Source of the DNA: a virus
Virus record (IMG/VR): IMGVR_UViG_3300046002_008066
Span: 1-26,868 of that record
Direction: 5' to 3' (one strand)
Length of the DNA stretch: 26,868 bases
A model generated the notes under the pieces. The model worked only from the letters and a program-made list of their open reading frames with translations. It made no database searches and was not told the DNA's origin. Positions 4,134-18,811 of this stretch are shown here, piece after piece (position 1 is the first letter of the stretch; every line of letters begins with the position of its first letter). The position numbers and the translations under genes were made by a program.

Positions 4134-5259
4134 TATTGATGAGCTTCTTAAAGTATCCAATCAAGAAGGCTGCTAATTTAACATCGTTCTCAATGAACAA
4201 GAATAAATTGTCAGCCCCTTGAATTTTCTCAGGAATTATAATAGCAGTTTCTTCTAGCACTAATTGCCGAAACTCTTCTGAGATGTTGATCCAAGCTCCT
4301 TTGCGAGAGATGAACTCCCATGCATAAAGCATATCAACGATTTCTTTTTCGATCCAAATTGAATTGCCATTGCTTCTTCCATATTTAATAGGATATGGAA
4401 TTGTTAAGTTGGTCTTTTCATTTGGAGACTTCTTCACTGTGGCTTTTGCAAAGTGACCAATGATTGGATTATTGATTAAATCAATTTTATTATCGTTGGG
4501 ATTTTTGAGAATAAGATCTCCCTTGAATCTTGGTTCAAACTCAAGAATCCAGTTGGCAAAGTGAAGCAGAGCGTTGCCGCCAGTAGCAGAGGTTTGGCGC
4601 ACTGGAGCTTTGGAGTATGGATCAAGTTTGATATCTGCACGAACTTGACTGATAAAAATTGCCAAGTGACCCCTCTTGCACAGAGAGATTGACATTCGCT
4701 TCATAAAGTTACCAGCAATCACTGCTCCACCAGCAACCTTATTGCTATCCTCAAATCCCTTGTCCAAATCTCCTTTAGAGATGAGTCCATCCACAGAGTC
4801 TAAAAGGAAAAAGTAGAATTTATTTTCATCATTTTTACCCACTAGTTGTCGCATAGCATCAACAGCAGTTTCATAAATATTTGTTTCAAATACAAAACAA
4901 GTTCCATCAACCCATTCATCCGCAGAGAAAACAAATTTAATACCAGACCTTTCTCTCATTTGTTTGGAGAGGCGACCTTCAGCTTTGATGTAAAAACCTT
5001 TGCGATTAGCACCACCATCTAAAAAGCCCTTCATGAATGAGAGGGCGCAAGATGTTTTTCCAGTTTCATTTGGCCCGCAAAATCTGTGCAGTCCTGGTCC
5101 CAATCCGCCATCTAAATGCAAGTCCAATTGCAGAGATCCACTAGAAACTTTATAGTCAATTTCTTCTTCAAAATTATAGTGATCTTCAGAATTTTGCTTG
5201 AGGAATGATCCCAGAACATCGGATGATTTTACAAACTCTTTATCTTTAATTTTGCTCAT
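4123..5259 (-). CDS. uvsX: UvsX/RecA-family recombinase
   Basis: A 378-residue strand-exchange ATPase. Walker A is GPNETGKT (62-69), the catalytic glutamate lies in YIKAEG (90-95, Glu94), and Walker B is FFLLDS (150-155, Asp154). ISQVRADI (203-210) supplies the glutamine that senses ATP, and SATGGNALLHFA (224-235) corresponds to the RecA L2-region PGGRALKF motif. It forms filaments on single-stranded DNA for repair and recombination-dependent replication. The length is close to T4 UvsX (about 390) and longer than the RecA core, so the UvsX name is preferred, although the sequence is diverged. It starts inside the 3' end of the small basic gene at 5246 and overlaps the endonuclease gene by 11 bases, so the three are coupled. 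Confidence 0.85.
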   Translation of the reverse strand: MSKIKDKEFVKSSDVLGSFLKQNSEDHYNFEEEIDYKVSSGSLQLDLHLDGGLGPGLHRFCGPNETGKTSCALSFMKGFLDGGANRKGFYIKAEGRLSKQMRERSGIKFVFSADEWVDGTCFVFETNIYETAVDAMRQLVGKNDENKFYFFLLDSVDGLISKGDLDKGFEDSNKVAGGAVIAGNFMKRMSISLCKRGHLAIFISQVRADIKLDPYSKAPVRQTSATGGNALLHFANWILEFEPRFKGDLILKNPNDNKIDLINNPIIGHFAKATVKKSPNEKTNLTIPYPIKYGRSNGNSIWIEKEIVDMLYAWEFISRKGAWINISEEFRQLVLEETAIIIPEKIQGADNLFLFIENDVKLAAFLIGYFKKLINNEV

Positions 5260-15092: not shown

Positions 15093-15129
15093 GTTAGTTA
15101 TAATGTCTTATTAATAAATCTCTAGTTTT

Positions 15130-16101
15130 TTAGAATAAATCGTTTTCATCGAAACTCTTATTGTCTTTAGAATACTCTACTGGAGTACTGTAAAAGAAAT
15201 CAGATGCTGTGTTTCCGTATAAACTCTCGTCAAACCATTTTGTTTTAGCAAGAAGTTCGTCGTCGATTGAGAAGGCTTTCTTGAATCCAATCAAACCAAA
15301 TGATTCATTGATTCTATTTTTCACAAATTCTTTAAGAATTGGGGCGGATAACAAATCTTCTTCGGCTCCATTAACAATCCAATCAATAATTTTAGACTCT
15401 GCAATCAGAGCTTCTTGAGCTTCGTGCAGAATTCTCGCCTCAAGTTCAGCATCAAATAATTCTGGGAACTCTTTTCTAATATCATTAATGATCTGAATCC
15501 CGATAAGACCATGAATCATCTCTTCGTTTTTAGTATATCTAACCTGCTGATTAGTATCTTTTAGTAAGTTATTTTTACCGAACCAGTTAATAACATAAAA
15601 CTGGCTAAACAGCGAAGCGTTTTCGACAAAGAGAGTGAATAGTATGATGCTATAAAGAAACTGCTTTTTAGAATCTTTGTAGAAACGATGAGTATACTTT
15701 TTCAAATACTTCACTCTTCCTTGAATCCAATCAAGCTTGAGGTTCTCCTCAAATACATCATTTAAATCAAGTATTGTTAGCAGTGCTTCATAAGCATTAT
15801 TATGAACAACTTCTGTATTTGCCATTACAAAACCAAGATCTTGAATAGCTGGATGCGGAAGATTATCTCCTAATTTTGCCCAAAATGTTTTAACAGCAAC
15901 TTCAATTTGCCCAATTGCAGACAATGTGCGAATGATGATTTCCCTGTCTCTCTCACTCAAGGAAACTTTAAAATCTTGAACGTCTGATTTAAAATTCCAC
16001 CTTTTATGAGACCACGCATTGTTATGCATAGCATCAATAAATTGCTCTGTCCAGGGATAAAGGTTGGGTTTTCTAGATACTTGTTCGTCAAAAATACTCA
16101 T
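15130..16101 (-). CDS. nrdB: Class I ribonucleotide reductase, small (beta) subunit
   Basis: A 323-residue radical-generating subunit. The start at 16101 (MSIFDEQ) is chosen over 16143 because family similarity begins there and a promoter ends 4 bases before it. Metal ligands in ferritin-like order: Glu67 in GQIEVAVK (an aspartate in E. coli), Glu97 and His100 in NTEVVHNNAY, Glu160 in LFVENASLF, Glu194 and His197 in KNEEMIHG. Tyr104 lies four residues after His100, where the stable tyrosyl radical forms in E. coli (Tyr122), so a classical tyrosyl-radical enzyme is expected. The acidic-aromatic C-terminus FDENDLF is the part that docks on NrdA. It precedes nrdA in one unit. Confidence 0.92.
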   Translation of the reverse strand: MSIFDEQVSRKPNLYPWTEQFIDAMHNNAWSHKRWNFKSDVQDFKVSLSERDREIIIRTLSAIGQIEVAVKTFWAKLGDNLPHPAIQDLGFVMANTEVVHNNAYEALLTILDLNDVFEENLKLDWIQGRVKYLKKYTHRFYKDSKKQFLYSIILFTLFVENASLFSQFYVINWFGKNNLLKDTNQQVRYTKNEEMIHGLIGIQIINDIRKEFPELFDAELEARILHEAQEALIAESKIIDWIVNGAEEDLLSAPILKEFVKNRINESFGLIGFKKAFSIDDELLAKTKWFDESLYGNTASDFFYSTPVEYSKDNKSFDENDLF

Positions 16102-16134
16102 GGCTAATATCTTACACCATAGTCTAGGAATCAA
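16102..16134 (-). promoter_or_regulatory. Probable promoter of nrdB-nrdA, leaderless placement
   Basis: On the minus strand, TTGATT (16134-16129) is followed after 17 bases by GATATT (16111-16106), 4 bases, and the nrdB ATG at 16101. The boxes are weaker than at other units, but spacing and distance to the ATG match them. Confidence 0.5.
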
Positions 16135-16168
16135 GAATAGCAAATGGAATTTTTCTTTAATTTTGCCG

Positions 16169-16197
16169 TTGACAGATTAAAATTTGATATACATAAT
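16169..16197 (+). promoter_or_regulatory. Rightward sigma70-like promoter running into the first hairpin
   Basis: TTGACA (16169-16174) is followed after 17 bases by CATAAT (16192-16197), five of six matches to the -10 consensus. The predicted start near 16204 lies inside the first hairpin. No gene begins within 280 bases downstream, so it either makes a long structured leader, a short RNA ending near the palindromes at 16262-16311, or serves another role such as origin transcription. Confidence 0.55.
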
Positions 16198-16234
16198 ACT
16201 GAGCGAAGCGAAGTATTACCGAGCGAAGCGAGGT
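16194..16234. repeat. Tandem GCGAAGC hairpins, unit A
   Basis: Hairpin 1 (16194-16218) has arms TAATACT and AGTATTA enclosing GA, GCGAAGC, GA. Hairpin 2 (16218-16234) has arms ACC and GGT enclosing the same GA, GCGAAGC, GA. In each, GC pairs with GC across a GAA loop, and the flanking GA steps face each other as tandem G-A mismatches, which can form stable sheared pairs. The two hairpins abut, sharing base 16218. Confidence 0.85.
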
Positions 16235-16261
16235 TGCCGTTAAATTTGTAGATGCTCTGAA

Positions 16262-16288
16262 TAATTAATTTGCTTCGCAAATTAATTA
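16262..16288. repeat. 12-bp perfect palindrome with TTC loop (GAA on the other strand)
   Basis: Arms 16262-16273 (ending AATTTGC) and 16277-16288 (beginning GCAAATT) are perfectly complementary around loop TTC. On the complementary strand the tip reads GCGAAGC, so the same mini-hairpin sequence is presented by the opposite strand. Confidence 0.85.
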
Positions 16289-16311
16289 AAGATTTTTGAA
16301 AAAAATCTTTA
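16287..16311. repeat. 11-bp perfect palindrome with GAA loop
   Basis: Arms 16287-16297 (TAAAGATTTTT) and 16301-16311 (AAAAATCTTTA) pair perfectly around loop GAA. It overlaps the previous palindrome by two bases. The stem is almost all A-T, and no uninterrupted T-run follows, so it is a poor intrinsic terminator. Confidence 0.75.
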
Positions 16312-16329
16312 TTCATTGCACTTTTTCAC

Positions 16330-16357
16330 TTGAATTGTGGAACTGCACTAATATAAT
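16330..16357 (+). promoter_or_regulatory. Rightward promoter whose -10 box is the arm of a hairpin
   Basis: TTGAAT (16330-16335) is followed after 16 bases by a perfect TATAAT (16352-16357). The TATAAT is the outer part of the left arm of hairpin 3. The palindromic right arm gives a TATAAT on the opposite strand (16380-16375), but no -35 is seen for that direction. It could drive the unit beginning at 16491-16497 with a leader of about 130 bases. Confidence 0.5.
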
Positions 16358-16395
16358 ACTGAGCGAAGCGAAGTATTATACGAGCGAGAGCGAGT
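16352..16395. repeat. Tandem GCGAAGC-type hairpins, unit B
   Basis: Hairpin 3 (16352-16380) has 9-base arms TATAATACT and AGTATTATA enclosing GA, GCGAAGC, GA. Hairpin 4 (16380-16395) has arms AC and GT enclosing GA, GC, loop GAGA, GC, GA. Bases 16353-16378 are identical to 16193-16218, exactly 160 bases upstream. Hairpin 4 differs from hairpin 2 in stem and loop but keeps the same architecture, with a GNNA loop in place of GNA. Confidence 0.85.
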
Positions 16396-16462
16396 TTAAA
16401 ATGAAAACGTAACGCTTTTCAACTACGTGCAAATATATTTTTACTTTATGTATAAATTTTAC

Positions 16463-16491
16463 TTGACAGCATACAATTCTATGCTTAATTA
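16463..16491 (+). promoter_or_regulatory. Promoter of the dut-dNMPK-sigma-ssb unit, with inner inverted repeat
   Basis: TTGACA (16463-16468) is followed after 17 bases by TAATTA (16486-16491) and then 5 bases to the ATG at 16497, the same geometry as the helicase promoter. The spacer holds an inverted repeat, GCATA (16469-16473) and TATGC (16480-16484), which could be a repressor site. Confidence 0.5.
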
Positions 16492-16496
16492 TGTTA

Positions 16497-16766
16497 ATGG
16501 ACGAACCACAACAAGAATATTTATGCTCTAGCGCTAACTGGGAGGTATCAGTATCGGCAAAATCTGCTGAAGAAGCAGCATCACTAGCAGTTCAAAAAAT
16601 AGTCGATGGTTCAAAAGTTGTAAACTTTCCAATTGGAGCTATGATTGTTGTTATACCAATTGTGAAAGATCTGGAAAATTTACACATGATTTATGCTCCC
16701 AAAATCTTGGCAGACGTTGGTCTTCATGAATTCTCATCAGATTTAATCAAATTTATAAATGAATAA
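16497..16766 (+). CDS. Small conserved phage protein, first gene of the rightward unit
   Basis: An 89-residue protein (91 if the ATG at 16491 is used). The start at 16497 is preferred because the upstream promoter has the geometry seen elsewhere only if this ATG is used; there is no Shine-Dalgarno before either. EYLCSSANWEVSVSAKSAEEAASLAVQKIV looks like a short strand-helix domain of a type common in small phage proteins: YLCSSANWEVSVSAKSAEEA reads as a strand followed by a helix and resembles domains that sense or bind small ligands, but no function can be assigned. Hydrophobic VNFPIGAMIVVIPIV is a buried strand rather than a membrane segment. Its stop overlaps the dUTPase start by 8 bases. 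Confidence 0.7.
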   Translation: MDEPQQEYLCSSANWEVSVSAKSAEEAASLAVQKIVDGSKVVNFPIGAMIVVIPIVKDLENLHMIYAPKILADVGLHEFSSDLIKFINE

Positions 16767-17262
16767 ACTTAAAGTCAATAACATTTCTTTGATTAGCCCT
16801 CCATCTAATGGAGATGTTGGCTATGATATTTTCGCAAATTCAGAGCCAAATATTGTTGGTGAATACACTGAATCACTAGGCTATACTCACATTGATTACA
16901 TTGAGTATGACTCTGGATTGATTATTGATCCAGGGTCTGAGTATCATACTTTGCTTTTTCCCAGATCTTCAATTTCAACTAAAAATCTTGCTCTCTGCAA
17001 TAGTGTTGGAGTTATTGATTCTAGCTATAGAGGAACTATCAAAGTAAGGTTCAAATACATTCCTTCTCCAGAAGATGTTAATAATATTGGACGATTCGTT
17101 GCTAGACACGCTATCGATGTTAATTCTCAGTATATTTATAAAAAAGGCGATAAAATCGCACAATTAGTTTTTCAGAAATCAAATTTCGTTGAGCTTGAAC
17201 AGTGTGATTCTTTTGAACCAACACAAAGAGGAGAGGGGGGCTTTGGTAGCACAGGAGTATGA
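16759..17262 (+). CDS. dut: Trimeric dUTPase
   Basis: A 167-residue dUTP diphosphatase converting dUTP to dUMP, which keeps uracil out of DNA and feeds thymidylate synthesis. All five family motifs are present in order: DVGYDIFA (19-26), PRSSISTKN (68-76), NSVGVIDSSYRG (81-92, catalytic Asp87, uracil-stacking Tyr90), KGDKIAQLVF (129-138), and RGEGGFGSTG (157-166), the glycine-rich arm that closes over the active site of a neighbouring subunit. It is about 15-20 residues longer than the shortest bacterial enzymes because of a loop at about 30-52 rich in Tyr and acidic residues. It overlaps the dNMP kinase by 4 bases. Confidence 0.94.
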   Translation: MNKLKVNNISLISPPSNGDVGYDIFANSEPNIVGEYTESLGYTHIDYIEYDSGLIIDPGSEYHTLLFPRSSISTKNLALCNSVGVIDSSYRGTIKVRFKYIPSPEDVNNIGRFVARHAIDVNSQYIYKKGDKIAQLVFQKSNFVELEQCDSFEPTQRGEGGFGSTGV

Positions 17263-17837
17263 ACGATAGAATTATTGGAATTTGTGGACCAGCTAGAAGT
17301 GGCAAAGATACTTTAGCTGATAGCTTCGTTGAAATTTTTAAAGAGTATAAAGTTAAAACTCAAAAATTATCTTTTGCTAAAGAATTGAAATATGAATGTA
17401 AAAGTTTTGTTAAAAAAACTTTAGGCATTGACATTTTTACAGAAGTTACAGAAGAAAAAGATATTATTCGACCGCTTTTAGTAACATGGGGAACTCACGT
17501 AAGGCGCAAATTAAATGATAACGTTTGGATTGATGCTCTTGAAAAAAGAATGCATTCTAATAAAATAGTAATCATTAGCGATGTTAGATTTGAGAATGAA
17601 TTTAATTGGGTAAAAAAACAAGGAGGAAAAATTATATTTGTTAATAGAACTCTTCCAGATGGAAGTTTAGTTCCAAATGCAAATGAAGAGGAGGAGAAAA
17701 ACAATTCTTTCTTACAGCAAAATGCTGATTCGGCTTTTACATGGGACACTATGAATGATGAAAGATGGATTCAAGCTATTTCTCATACAATTTTAACAGG
17801 GATCGTTCCTAAAGATTGGATTAACCGTGGACTCTGA
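17259..17837 (+). CDS. Phage deoxynucleoside monophosphate kinase
   Basis: A 192-residue P-loop kinase resembling T4 gp1, which phosphorylates dNMPs to dNDPs. GICGPARSGKDTLA (7-20) is the Walker A loop, with the K-D in place of K-S/T typical of this family. The IIRPLLVTWGTHVRRKL segment and KIVIISDVRFENEF with NWVKKQGGKIIFVNR match the substrate-binding and core-strand segments of phage dNMP kinases. Together with dUTPase and ribonucleotide reductase it completes a phage route to dNTPs. GGAG lies just upstream of the ATG. The C-terminus overlaps the sigma-factor gene by 11 bases. Confidence 0.85.
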   Translation: MNDRIIGICGPARSGKDTLADSFVEIFKEYKVKTQKLSFAKELKYECKSFVKKTLGIDIFTEVTEEKDIIRPLLVTWGTHVRRKLNDNVWIDALEKRMHSNKIVIISDVRFENEFNWVKKQGGKIIFVNRTLPDGSLVPNANEEEEKNNSFLQQNADSAFTWDTMNDERWIQAISHTILTGIVPKDWINRGL

Positions 17838-18393
17838 TTTATCTCTCATCAATAAAATTAAAGAGAATCGCGATGATGAAAGTTTAAAAGAACTCATTAA
17901 TCGCCACTCTGGGATTTATTTAGAAATGGTTAATCGTGTTATTCCAGACTACTCTGGCATTGTTAATAAGCACGATGTTTTGCTGGAAAAAGATTTTACA
18001 ATCTATTGTGCTGCTTTAAAATATGAGCCAGATAGAAATACAAAATTCTCAACTCACTTAGCTAACGAAACAAGATGGAAATGCTTGAATCTTTATAATA
18101 AAAATAAAAAGATGATGGAAGAGCCTCTTGATAAAATCATCGTCGAACCTTTTTGCGAAGACTTTACAAAGTCTATTCACAAACAAGAACTTATTCAAAG
18201 CATTCTTGATTATGCAAAAAAATATCCTGATGCTAGAGTAAGAAAAATGATTGACATGAGATACGACTCGATGTATAATAAAGTCGTTCCTTGGAAATTA
18301 ATTGCTAAAGAACTTGGAATGAGCATTCAAGGCTGCATAGATATTCACAATAAATTCATTATTAAAGCCAAAAAAGAACTAAATTATGTATAA
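17827..18393 (+). CDS. RNA polymerase sigma-like factor
   Basis: A 188-residue protein with GTG start. DFTIYCAALKYEPDRNTKFS (56-75) continuing through THLANETRWKCLNLYNKNKK resembles sigma70 region 2 (the core-binding helix followed by the F-S-T-x-x-x-x-x-x-R-W DNA-melting segment). Residues 153-185, with PWKLIAKELGMSIQGCIDIH and an Arg/Lys-rich helix, resemble the region 4 helix-turn-helix. The length is close to T4 gp55 (185), the late sigma factor, so a role in switching host RNA polymerase to phage late genes is a fair inference. It could also be an ECF-like middle-gene factor. It overlaps genes on both sides. Confidence 0.78.
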   Translation: MDSDLSLINKIKENRDDESLKELINRHSGIYLEMVNRVIPDYSGIVNKHDVLLEKDFTIYCAALKYEPDRNTKFSTHLANETRWKCLNLYNKNKKMMEEPLDKIIVEPFCEDFTKSIHKQELIQSILDYAKKYPDARVRKMIDMRYDSMYNKVVPWKLIAKELGMSIQGCIDIHNKFIIKAKKELNYV

Positions 18394-18811
18394 CAAAATC
18401 ATCGGAATTGGACACGTAGTAAAAGATCCAGAATCGCGAACAACCTCTACTGGCAAGCAAGTTTGCACGTTGAGAGTTTGCATTTCTGACTCTCAAGCAA
18501 AAAATAAATGTTTTATTGATTGCGAGTGCTGGGACAAGCTCGCTGAAATTTGCGTTAAATTCGTGAAGAAAGGAAAAGAAATTATGATTGAAGGCGAACT
18601 TAACATGTCATCTTGGACTGGAAAAGATGGCTCTACTCAAACTAAGCCATATATTCGCGCAGATAAAGTTAAGTTTTTGAATTCCGCTCCAAAGCAGGAA
18701 GCTGGATCTGAAGATGAAAGCTTCTCAGATTCAAAATCTGATGGAAAAAAGACATTTTCTAAACCCAAACAACAAGTTGAAGAGATCGACTCTGAAGACA
18801 TTCCATTCTAA
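18386..18811 (+). CDS. ssb: Bacterial-type single-stranded DNA-binding protein
   Basis: A 141-residue SSB. The OB fold spans 1-100, beginning YNKIIGIGHVVKDPESRTT, with CTLRVCIS, FIDCECWDKLAEICVKFVKK and GKEIMIEGELNMSSW as its strands and helix. A serine/lysine-rich linker leads to the C-terminal tip DSEDIPF, the conserved acidic peptide that recruits partner proteins to SSB-coated DNA. The phage therefore uses a bacterial-type SSB with its own partner-binding tip rather than a T4 gp32-type protein in this region. The stop overlaps the next start as TAATG. Confidence 0.92.
   Translation: MYNKIIGIGHVVKDPESRTTSTGKQVCTLRVCISDSQAKNKCFIDCECWDKLAEICVKFVKKGKEIMIEGELNMSSWTGKDGSTQTKPYIRADKVKFLNSAPKQEAGSEDESFSDSKSDGKKTFSKPKQQVEEIDSEDIPF

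Follow-up and report, generated by a model that had tools for sequence, protein, structure and literature searches.

What might an array of small hairpins be doing in the divergent gap between two phage operons of nucleotide metabolism and replication? The locus lies in a tailed-phage fragment of 26,868 bp from IMG/VR (the window), which belongs to a freshwater phage. To the left of the gap the ribonucleotide reductase small subunit gene nrdB (15130-16101, minus strand) points away from the element; its open reading frame is listed to 16143, and the ATG at 16101 is the likely start. To the right, on the plus strand, an operon begins with a 91-aa gene with no function assigned (16491-16766) and continues with dUTPase (16759-17262), deoxynucleoside monophosphate (dNMP) kinase (17259-17837), a sigma-like protein (17827-18393), for which a weak Sigma70_r2 match was obtained in the L038 homologue only, and single-strand DNA-binding protein (SSB; 18386-18811), after which inspection alone indicated a glycosyltransferase-like gene.

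The initial annotation described four GCGAAGC-type hairpins with tandem G-A mismatches, arranged in two composite units at 16194-16234 and 16352-16395, and their coordinates, arms, loops and spacing were all confirmed. On the plus strand unit 1 consists of hairpin 1 (16194-16218; TAATACT[GAGCGAAGCGA]AGTATTA, i.e. TAATACT-GA-GC(GAA)GC-GA-AGTATTA, with 7 arm pairs) and hairpin 2 (16218-16234; ACC[GAGCGAAGCGA]GGT, i.e. ACC-GA-GC(GAA)GC-GA-GGT, with 3 arm pairs), and unit 2, on the same strand, of hairpin 3 (16352-16380; TATAATACT[GAGCGAAGCGA]AGTATTATA, i.e. TATAATACT-GA-GC(GAA)GC-GA-AGTATTATA, with 9 arm pairs) and hairpin 4 (16380-16395; AC[GAGCGAGAGCGA]GT, i.e. AC-GA-GC(GAGA)GC-GA-GT, with 2 arm pairs). 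One base is common to hairpins 1 and 2 and likewise to hairpins 3 and 4, and the cores begin at 16201, 16221, 16361, and 16382. The sequence GAGCGAAGCGA (at most one mismatch) occurs three times vs 0.16 expected, a number reached by none of 100 shuffles. Two central hairpins sit between the units, C1 (16262-16288, minus strand; TAATTAATTTGC(TTC)GCAAATTAATTA on the plus strand, with the GAA loop on the minus strand) and C2 (16287-16311, plus strand; TAAAGATTTTT(GAA)AAAAATCTTTA, with the GAA loop on the plus strand), and both are identical in the related records L006 and G023.

The 160-base offset between the units (cores at 16201 vs 16361) and the identical 26-base block are present in the window as described, while the duplication as a functional feature turned out to be incidental. 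In L006, whose NrdB is 98% identical and whose arrangement recurs in the 120-kb contig G023/L097, there is one composite unit, at the place of unit 2, so the 160-bp spacing is non-essential. Similarity searches of phage and plasmid DNA using the unit as query returned weak, chance-level matches only.

Hairpins 1 and 3 are clear hairpins, and hairpins 2 and 4 taken alone fold no better than shuffles. The calculated energies of the long hairpins are modest, -3 to -4.5 kcal/mol, with standard DNA energy parameters that may under-credit the stability of GNA loops and sheared G-A pairs. The biophysical model is reportedly the d(GCGAAGC) mini-hairpin of Hirao and co-workers, with which the phage element shares the same seven bases and loop, while adding GA/GA and arms and being placed in a promoter.

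Two predicted sigma70 promoters of the plus strand overlap the hairpin arms. Promoter 1 (16169-16197) is composed of TTGACA (16169-16174), a spacer of 17 nt and CATAAT (16192-16197), agreeing with the consensus at 11/12 positions, and promoter 2 (16330-16357) of TTGAAT (16330-16335), 16 nt and TATAAT (16352-16357), agreeing at 10/12. The 5' arm of hairpin 1 covers the last 4 bases of the promoter 1 -10 box, and the 5' arm of hairpin 3 holds the entire -10 box of promoter 2. The L006 counterpart of promoter 2, which stands before the same hairpin, matches the consensus at 12/12 (TTGACA-16-TATAAT). By sequence the sites of the window and L006 are thus of the sigma70 type, which calls for hexamers after the pattern of TTGACA and TATAAT at a distance of 16-18. 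In the 2.2 kb from 15100 to 17300 the top two sigma70-like sites are those with -10 boxes overlapping hairpin arms, with a third site at 16463-16492 tying promoter 2 at 10/12. A transcript from this third candidate (TTGACA-18-AATTAT), which extends to the start codon of the 91-aa gene, would be leaderless. As a general class, inverted repeats covering -10 boxes show no significant excess in these loci (16 vs 10.2 expected); the GA/GA subset alone is conspicuous. Of the functions proposed at the outset, namely origin, packaging, recombination or promoter element, the last one is favoured, as it alone has direct support from the sequence in the overlap between hairpin arm and sigma70 -10 box.

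The position of the predicted start bears on whether the hairpins could act as RNA. The usual distance from the -10 box sets this start inside the GAGCGNAGCGA core, so that most of the 5' arm would be untranscribed and the promoter's own transcript could not form the hairpin. RNA that starts within the core shows no better folding than shuffles (z +1.4 and -0.05), and RNA with both arms gives -10.0 and -11.3 kcal/mol for the composite units (z -2.3 and -3.0). A role in the RNA leader, i.e. in mRNA protection, processing or attenuation, played by hairpins 2 and 4 in their own transcripts or by unit 2 in RNA from promoter 1, would profit from this stability of both units when both arms are present, and unit 2 would be contained in RNA reading through from promoter 1; however, the 5' arm of hairpins 1 and 3 lies mostly upstream of the predicted start, the core-started RNA does not fold in this manner, and L006 is without the upstream unit. 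Also, Rfam gave zero matches in the window at gathering score, and no intrinsic terminator pattern was found at the element, with no T run 3' of any of the four hairpins. According to these data the RNA leader is considered very unlikely.

The claim that the fold is kept while the letters change has few differences to support it within the window but was borne out in relatives. In L006 the counterpart of hairpin 2 is AAC-GA-GC(GGA)GC-GA-GTT vs ACC/GGT in the window, which is a compensatory C-G to A-T change, and the loops are GTA and GGA in the counterparts of hairpins 1 and 2, respectively. A set of 80 loci picked solely by NrdB similarity added GA/GA hairpins with different arms in L038 (TATATTATTAC-GA-AC(GTA)GT-GA-arm, in the same divergent region) and in L075 and L008 (abutting hairpins upstream of the sigma-like/SSB operon). 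Hairpins of this geometry with at least 4 arm pairs numbered 8 for GA/GA in this set, near-identical L004 and L005 included, vs 0 for six other mismatch pairs.

Another set, picked by the sigma-like protein, added L576, L589, L571, and L573, of which L576 and L589 differ by one compensated arm pair. The L571 site reads TTGACA-17-TAATAT-CT-[GAGTGCAACGA]-AG-ATATTAA, and the L706 site, obtained from a scan, TTGACA-17-TAATAT-CT-[GAACGCAGTGA]; in both the hairpin promoter is located between co-directional genes, with a homologue of the 91-aa gene just upstream and the dNMP kinase directly downstream. Their cores are doubly compensated (GT(GCA)AC vs AC(GCA)GT): the hairpins agree at 25/29 bases and the four differing ones form two compensated pairs, whereas identity is 37.5% (ungapped) over the 80 nt that follow and 44-59% for the flanking proteins. 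The scan for TTGACA followed by the core produced 11 matches in which at least 4 arm pairs go together with pairing of the inner stem. The gap is 23-24 in five of them, the rest being scattered; in four of these five (window, L006, L571, and L706) the -10 box is in the arm. In L038, L576, and L589 the hairpin lies close to the same genes, and on inspection its arm contained no recognisable -35/-10.

When eight hairpins were compared, 8/9 pairs were changed on both sides and the covariation was 0.865 vs 0.279 in shuffles, with no slid version coming near; the pairing of 100% is inflated, partly by construction, because many of the eight sequences were found via a paired-arm search. The unbiased items are hairpin 2 of L006, the inner pairs of L571/L706, and the scans of the wider motif with their arm and mismatch counts. 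Complementarity of the arms, whose breakdown in relatives was looked for, is unbroken in those found. The compensatory changes in arms and inner pairs together with the kept GN(N)A loops and the unique site support the conclusion that the structure is under selection, and the element is real, conserved, and more specific than the initial annotation could see.

By its sequence, one strand of the start region of the promoter before the nucleotide-metabolism genes can form a small hairpin of unusual stability, which would hide part of this promoter. The fold kept under changing letters suggests a structural on/off switch in an ordinary bacterial-type promoter. The reading preferred here, tentatively and at a probability slightly short of even, is a DNA hairpin built into an early-type sigma70 promoter as a regulatory switch. 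All or most of the predicted -10 box is enclosed in the 5' arm, the GA-GC-GNA-GC-GA core extends across the predicted start, and the 3' arm would be the first transcribed DNA. We infer that under negative supercoiling or transient single-strandedness the non-template (plus) strand would fold in vivo by means of its tandem G-A pairs and GN(N)A loop and would sequester the -10 box, turning the promoter off, or alternatively would be presented to SSB or another phage factor, while in relaxed duplex the promoter may be readable by host RNA polymerase. In such a manner the divergent nrd and dUTPase/dNMP-kinase/sigma-like/SSB operons could be tuned to template topology or replication. Extended to a whole family of tailed phages, whose nucleotide-metabolism and replication operons would be driven by sigma70 promoters with the -10 box in a DNA-specific non-template hairpin, as a topology- or SSB-sensed switch operating with host RNA polymerase and without a phage RNA polymerase, the idea is possible but doubtful. 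If true, it would mean that phages control host RNA polymerase through folds in the DNA, and short exact sequences are at hand for testing supercoil-driven extrusion as a natural switch.

The nrdB-side promoters of relatives bring in the main rival of this hairpin switch. In many relatives near-perfect promoters, at a distance of 58-72 nt from the start of nrdB, carry short start-site palindromes, among them ACCGT(GAA)ACGGT, ACCGT(ATA)ACGGT, AGTAC(GTA)GTACT, and TAACGTTAACGTTA. Palindrome arms of at least 5 were present in 10/28 orthologous promoters vs 3.9 in shuffles (fraction 0.004), and several relatives have a plain short palindrome in place of the GA/GA hairpin, some of them without a GNA loop. 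An inverted repeat at the start seems to be characteristic of the family, and the GA/GA hairpin would be its elaborate version. These palindromes keep alive the explanation by a double-stranded operator, where a dimeric phage or host repressor bound to the arms over the -10 box and start would block RNA polymerase with no hairpin involved; the varied palindromes fit it equally well, and the -10/start position is classic for repressors. The kept GA/GA mismatches, the compensating inner stem, and the GN(N)A loops are, however, unexplained by a duplex, the arm sequence and half-site spacing (3, 4, and 11) vary among relatives, and no adjacent repressor gene was identified, so that the operator is judged unlikely.

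To our knowledge, DNA hairpins as natural parts of promoters are established essentially only for phage N4, where they are read by a dedicated phage polymerase. The N4 early promoters P1-P3 resemble the present element in having a short stem, a GC-rich heptamer, and a GNA loop; in N4 the loop has a sheared G-A pair and the hairpin is extruded by supercoiling, as is proposed here (PMC4496689). The GNA hairpin of N4 P1 placed between the -35 and -10 boxes of the rrnB promoter abolished its activity, which was restored by gyrase inhibition (PMC4496689). It could be proposed that the element is itself an N4-type promoter, i.e. a template-strand hairpin read by a phage virion RNA polymerase (vRNAP) leftward toward nrdB, as short-stem GC-GNA-GC heptamers are a hallmark of N4 early promoters (PMC4496689) and the GGA loop of L006 hairpin 2 and the GAA loop of the window fit the requirement for A/G at -11. 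This is extremely unlikely, since the loop centre is T in L006 hairpin 1, L038, and L576 and C in L571/L706, not A/G. The element differs from N4 promoters in its tandem G-A mismatches and outer arms, in residing on the non-template strand, and in belonging to a sigma70-type promoter with the -10 box in its arm. Among the long ORFs inspected in the 120-kb relative, which encode the tail tape measure, terminase, helicase, DNA polymerase, and protease, none was a vRNAP of about 3,500 aa, the tape measure had no match when compared with vRNAP in PDB, and the tail genes are unlike those of podoviruses; in the PF00940 search for a phage polymerase the control gave no match.

The surroundings of the array also recall replication structures. 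An AT-rich divergent gap beside SSB and replication genes, six GN(N)A-type hairpins in an array with the exact conservation of C1 and C2 in L006, and folding on the non-template side of the predicted promoters would suit a replication origin with an R-loop, in which the promoter transcript would stay on the template and the displaced plus strand would fold, opening the duplex for helicase or primase. This explanation seems quite unlikely, as the GC skew of the 120-kb relative reflects gene direction at this place without a further switch of the origin type, neither iterons nor a known origin motif turned up, and the L571/L706 hairpin lies between co-directional genes. In Streptomyces telomeres abutting DNA hairpins with GNA (GCA/GGA) or CTTG loops are kept by compensatory change (PMC7205883), and the third hairpin of L075 has a CTTG loop, as in those arrays (PMC7205883). 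The phage element differs from them in being internal and promoter-linked and in its outer GA/GA mismatches; a telomere of this type is an array at the end of a linear replicon, and the element was found at 80 kb of the 120-kb contig.

A separate question is how far the motif extends beyond these phages. As for copies scattered through the genome, the initial annotation's concern does not apply to the phage: in the 120-kb relative G023 GA/GA hairpins occur at this site only, and close phage records have 2-3 core matches each, all at this site. The core GAGCGNAGCGA taken alone, however, is a common interspersed motif in bacteria and their viruses and is therefore not phage-specific. In this wider family, 36/127 matches that were constrained to CT/AG had arms of at least 5 (chance expectation about 2%). 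Across unrelated viral contigs, when the arms and the loop stem were fixed, the mismatch step proved to be GA/GA in 109/131 and the unconstrained arm pair co-varied in 124/131; when arms and GA/GA were fixed, triloops were GNA in 78/93 and tetraloops GNNA in 14/21, with 1 of these 14 being GNRA. RNA tetraloops would favour GNRA, so the loop rule is DNA-like, which is a further argument against the RNA leader. The loop statistics and the GA/GA preference suggest that selection acts on the single-stranded DNA form of the common bacterial GAGCGNAGCGA repeats.

This abundance raises the possibility that the element came to lie beside a promoter as a passenger, copied from an interspersed hairpin repeat (REP/Bpu-like) widespread in bacteria. 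Bacterial and viral contigs commonly contain CT-GAGCGNAGCGA-AG hairpins whose arms vary, in L204 as arrays, an identical TAATACT hairpin is present in the unrelated phage contig L094, and the Bpu consensus of Cycas mitochondria contains the same core CCTGAGCGTAGCGAAGG (PMC8297867). Bpu-like elements of Cycas and Ginkgo mitochondria and the bacterial GAGCGNAGCGA repeats also share the inner arm CT/AG (PMC8297867), but they are dispersed in many copies, whereas the phage element is a single site per genome tied to one promoter, as G023 illustrates. The same gene neighbourhood in diverged phages, the compensated core of L571/L706, the promoter spacing fixed at 23-24, and the absence of the flanks of the GTC...CT repeat likewise speak against a passenger, which is highly improbable.

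Several observations on the wider motif were made on the way. A scan of viral and bacterial contigs for TATAAT-NNN-GAGCGNAGCGA gave mostly unrelated sites, indicating that TATAAT beside the core is not diagnostic by itself; some of these matches we take to be attC-like sequences and another a Bacteroidales repeat. The Bacteroidales MAG G010 (L125 and sister loci) contains GAGCGNAGCGA 148 times, whereas the reversed control occurs 4 times; many copies have the form TTATAATTTTGAGCGNAGCGACC, presumably placed after a Bacteroidetes -7 box, with GGCC(GTA)GGCC instead at some sites. In the bacterial MAG locus L204 (726-3174) intergenic arrays comprise up to about nine CT-GAGCG(N/NN)AGCGA-AG hairpins approximately 30 nt apart, whose arms vary and whose loops are GAA, GTA, GCA, GATA, and GTTA. 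The repeat GTC-ATYCT-GAGCGNAGCGA-AGRAT-CT is distributed across many unrelated viral contigs (L288, L310, L315, and L414 among them), sometimes as facing pairs; a literature search found no name for it, and a search on motif strings returned nothing informative apart from the Cycas paper (PMC8297867). GA/GA hairpins in arbitrary viral contigs had no clear gene-position preference by rough ORF calls. In the T4-like contigs L094 (1472-1520) and L286 (minus strand) the same TAATACT/ATACT GA/GA hairpin precedes a GATGAGC(GAA)GCTCATC hairpin with a T run behind it, which is a terminator-like place.

Some additional features of the window and related genomes were recorded. ARAGORN indicated a tRNA-Asp (anticodon atc) at 4463-4554 of the window, inside a recA-like gene on the opposite strand, which is probably false. 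The DNA polymerase is split into two genes in L715:6375-9579 (G023) and G002:16338-20216, where the second gene starts with MQATRIKSFK...LITSNSH and looks like a C-terminal intein half. Inserted inteins are also probable in NrdA of G023 (82425-85202; 925 aa vs 564 aa in the window) and in its DnaB (100305-102899; 864 aa vs 502 aa in the window). In the same contig L710:15122-19965, continuing to about 21 kb, contains repetitive ORFs (EFCRGFC... and YRIPYRI...); the GC skew of the 15-20 kb bin is 0.32.
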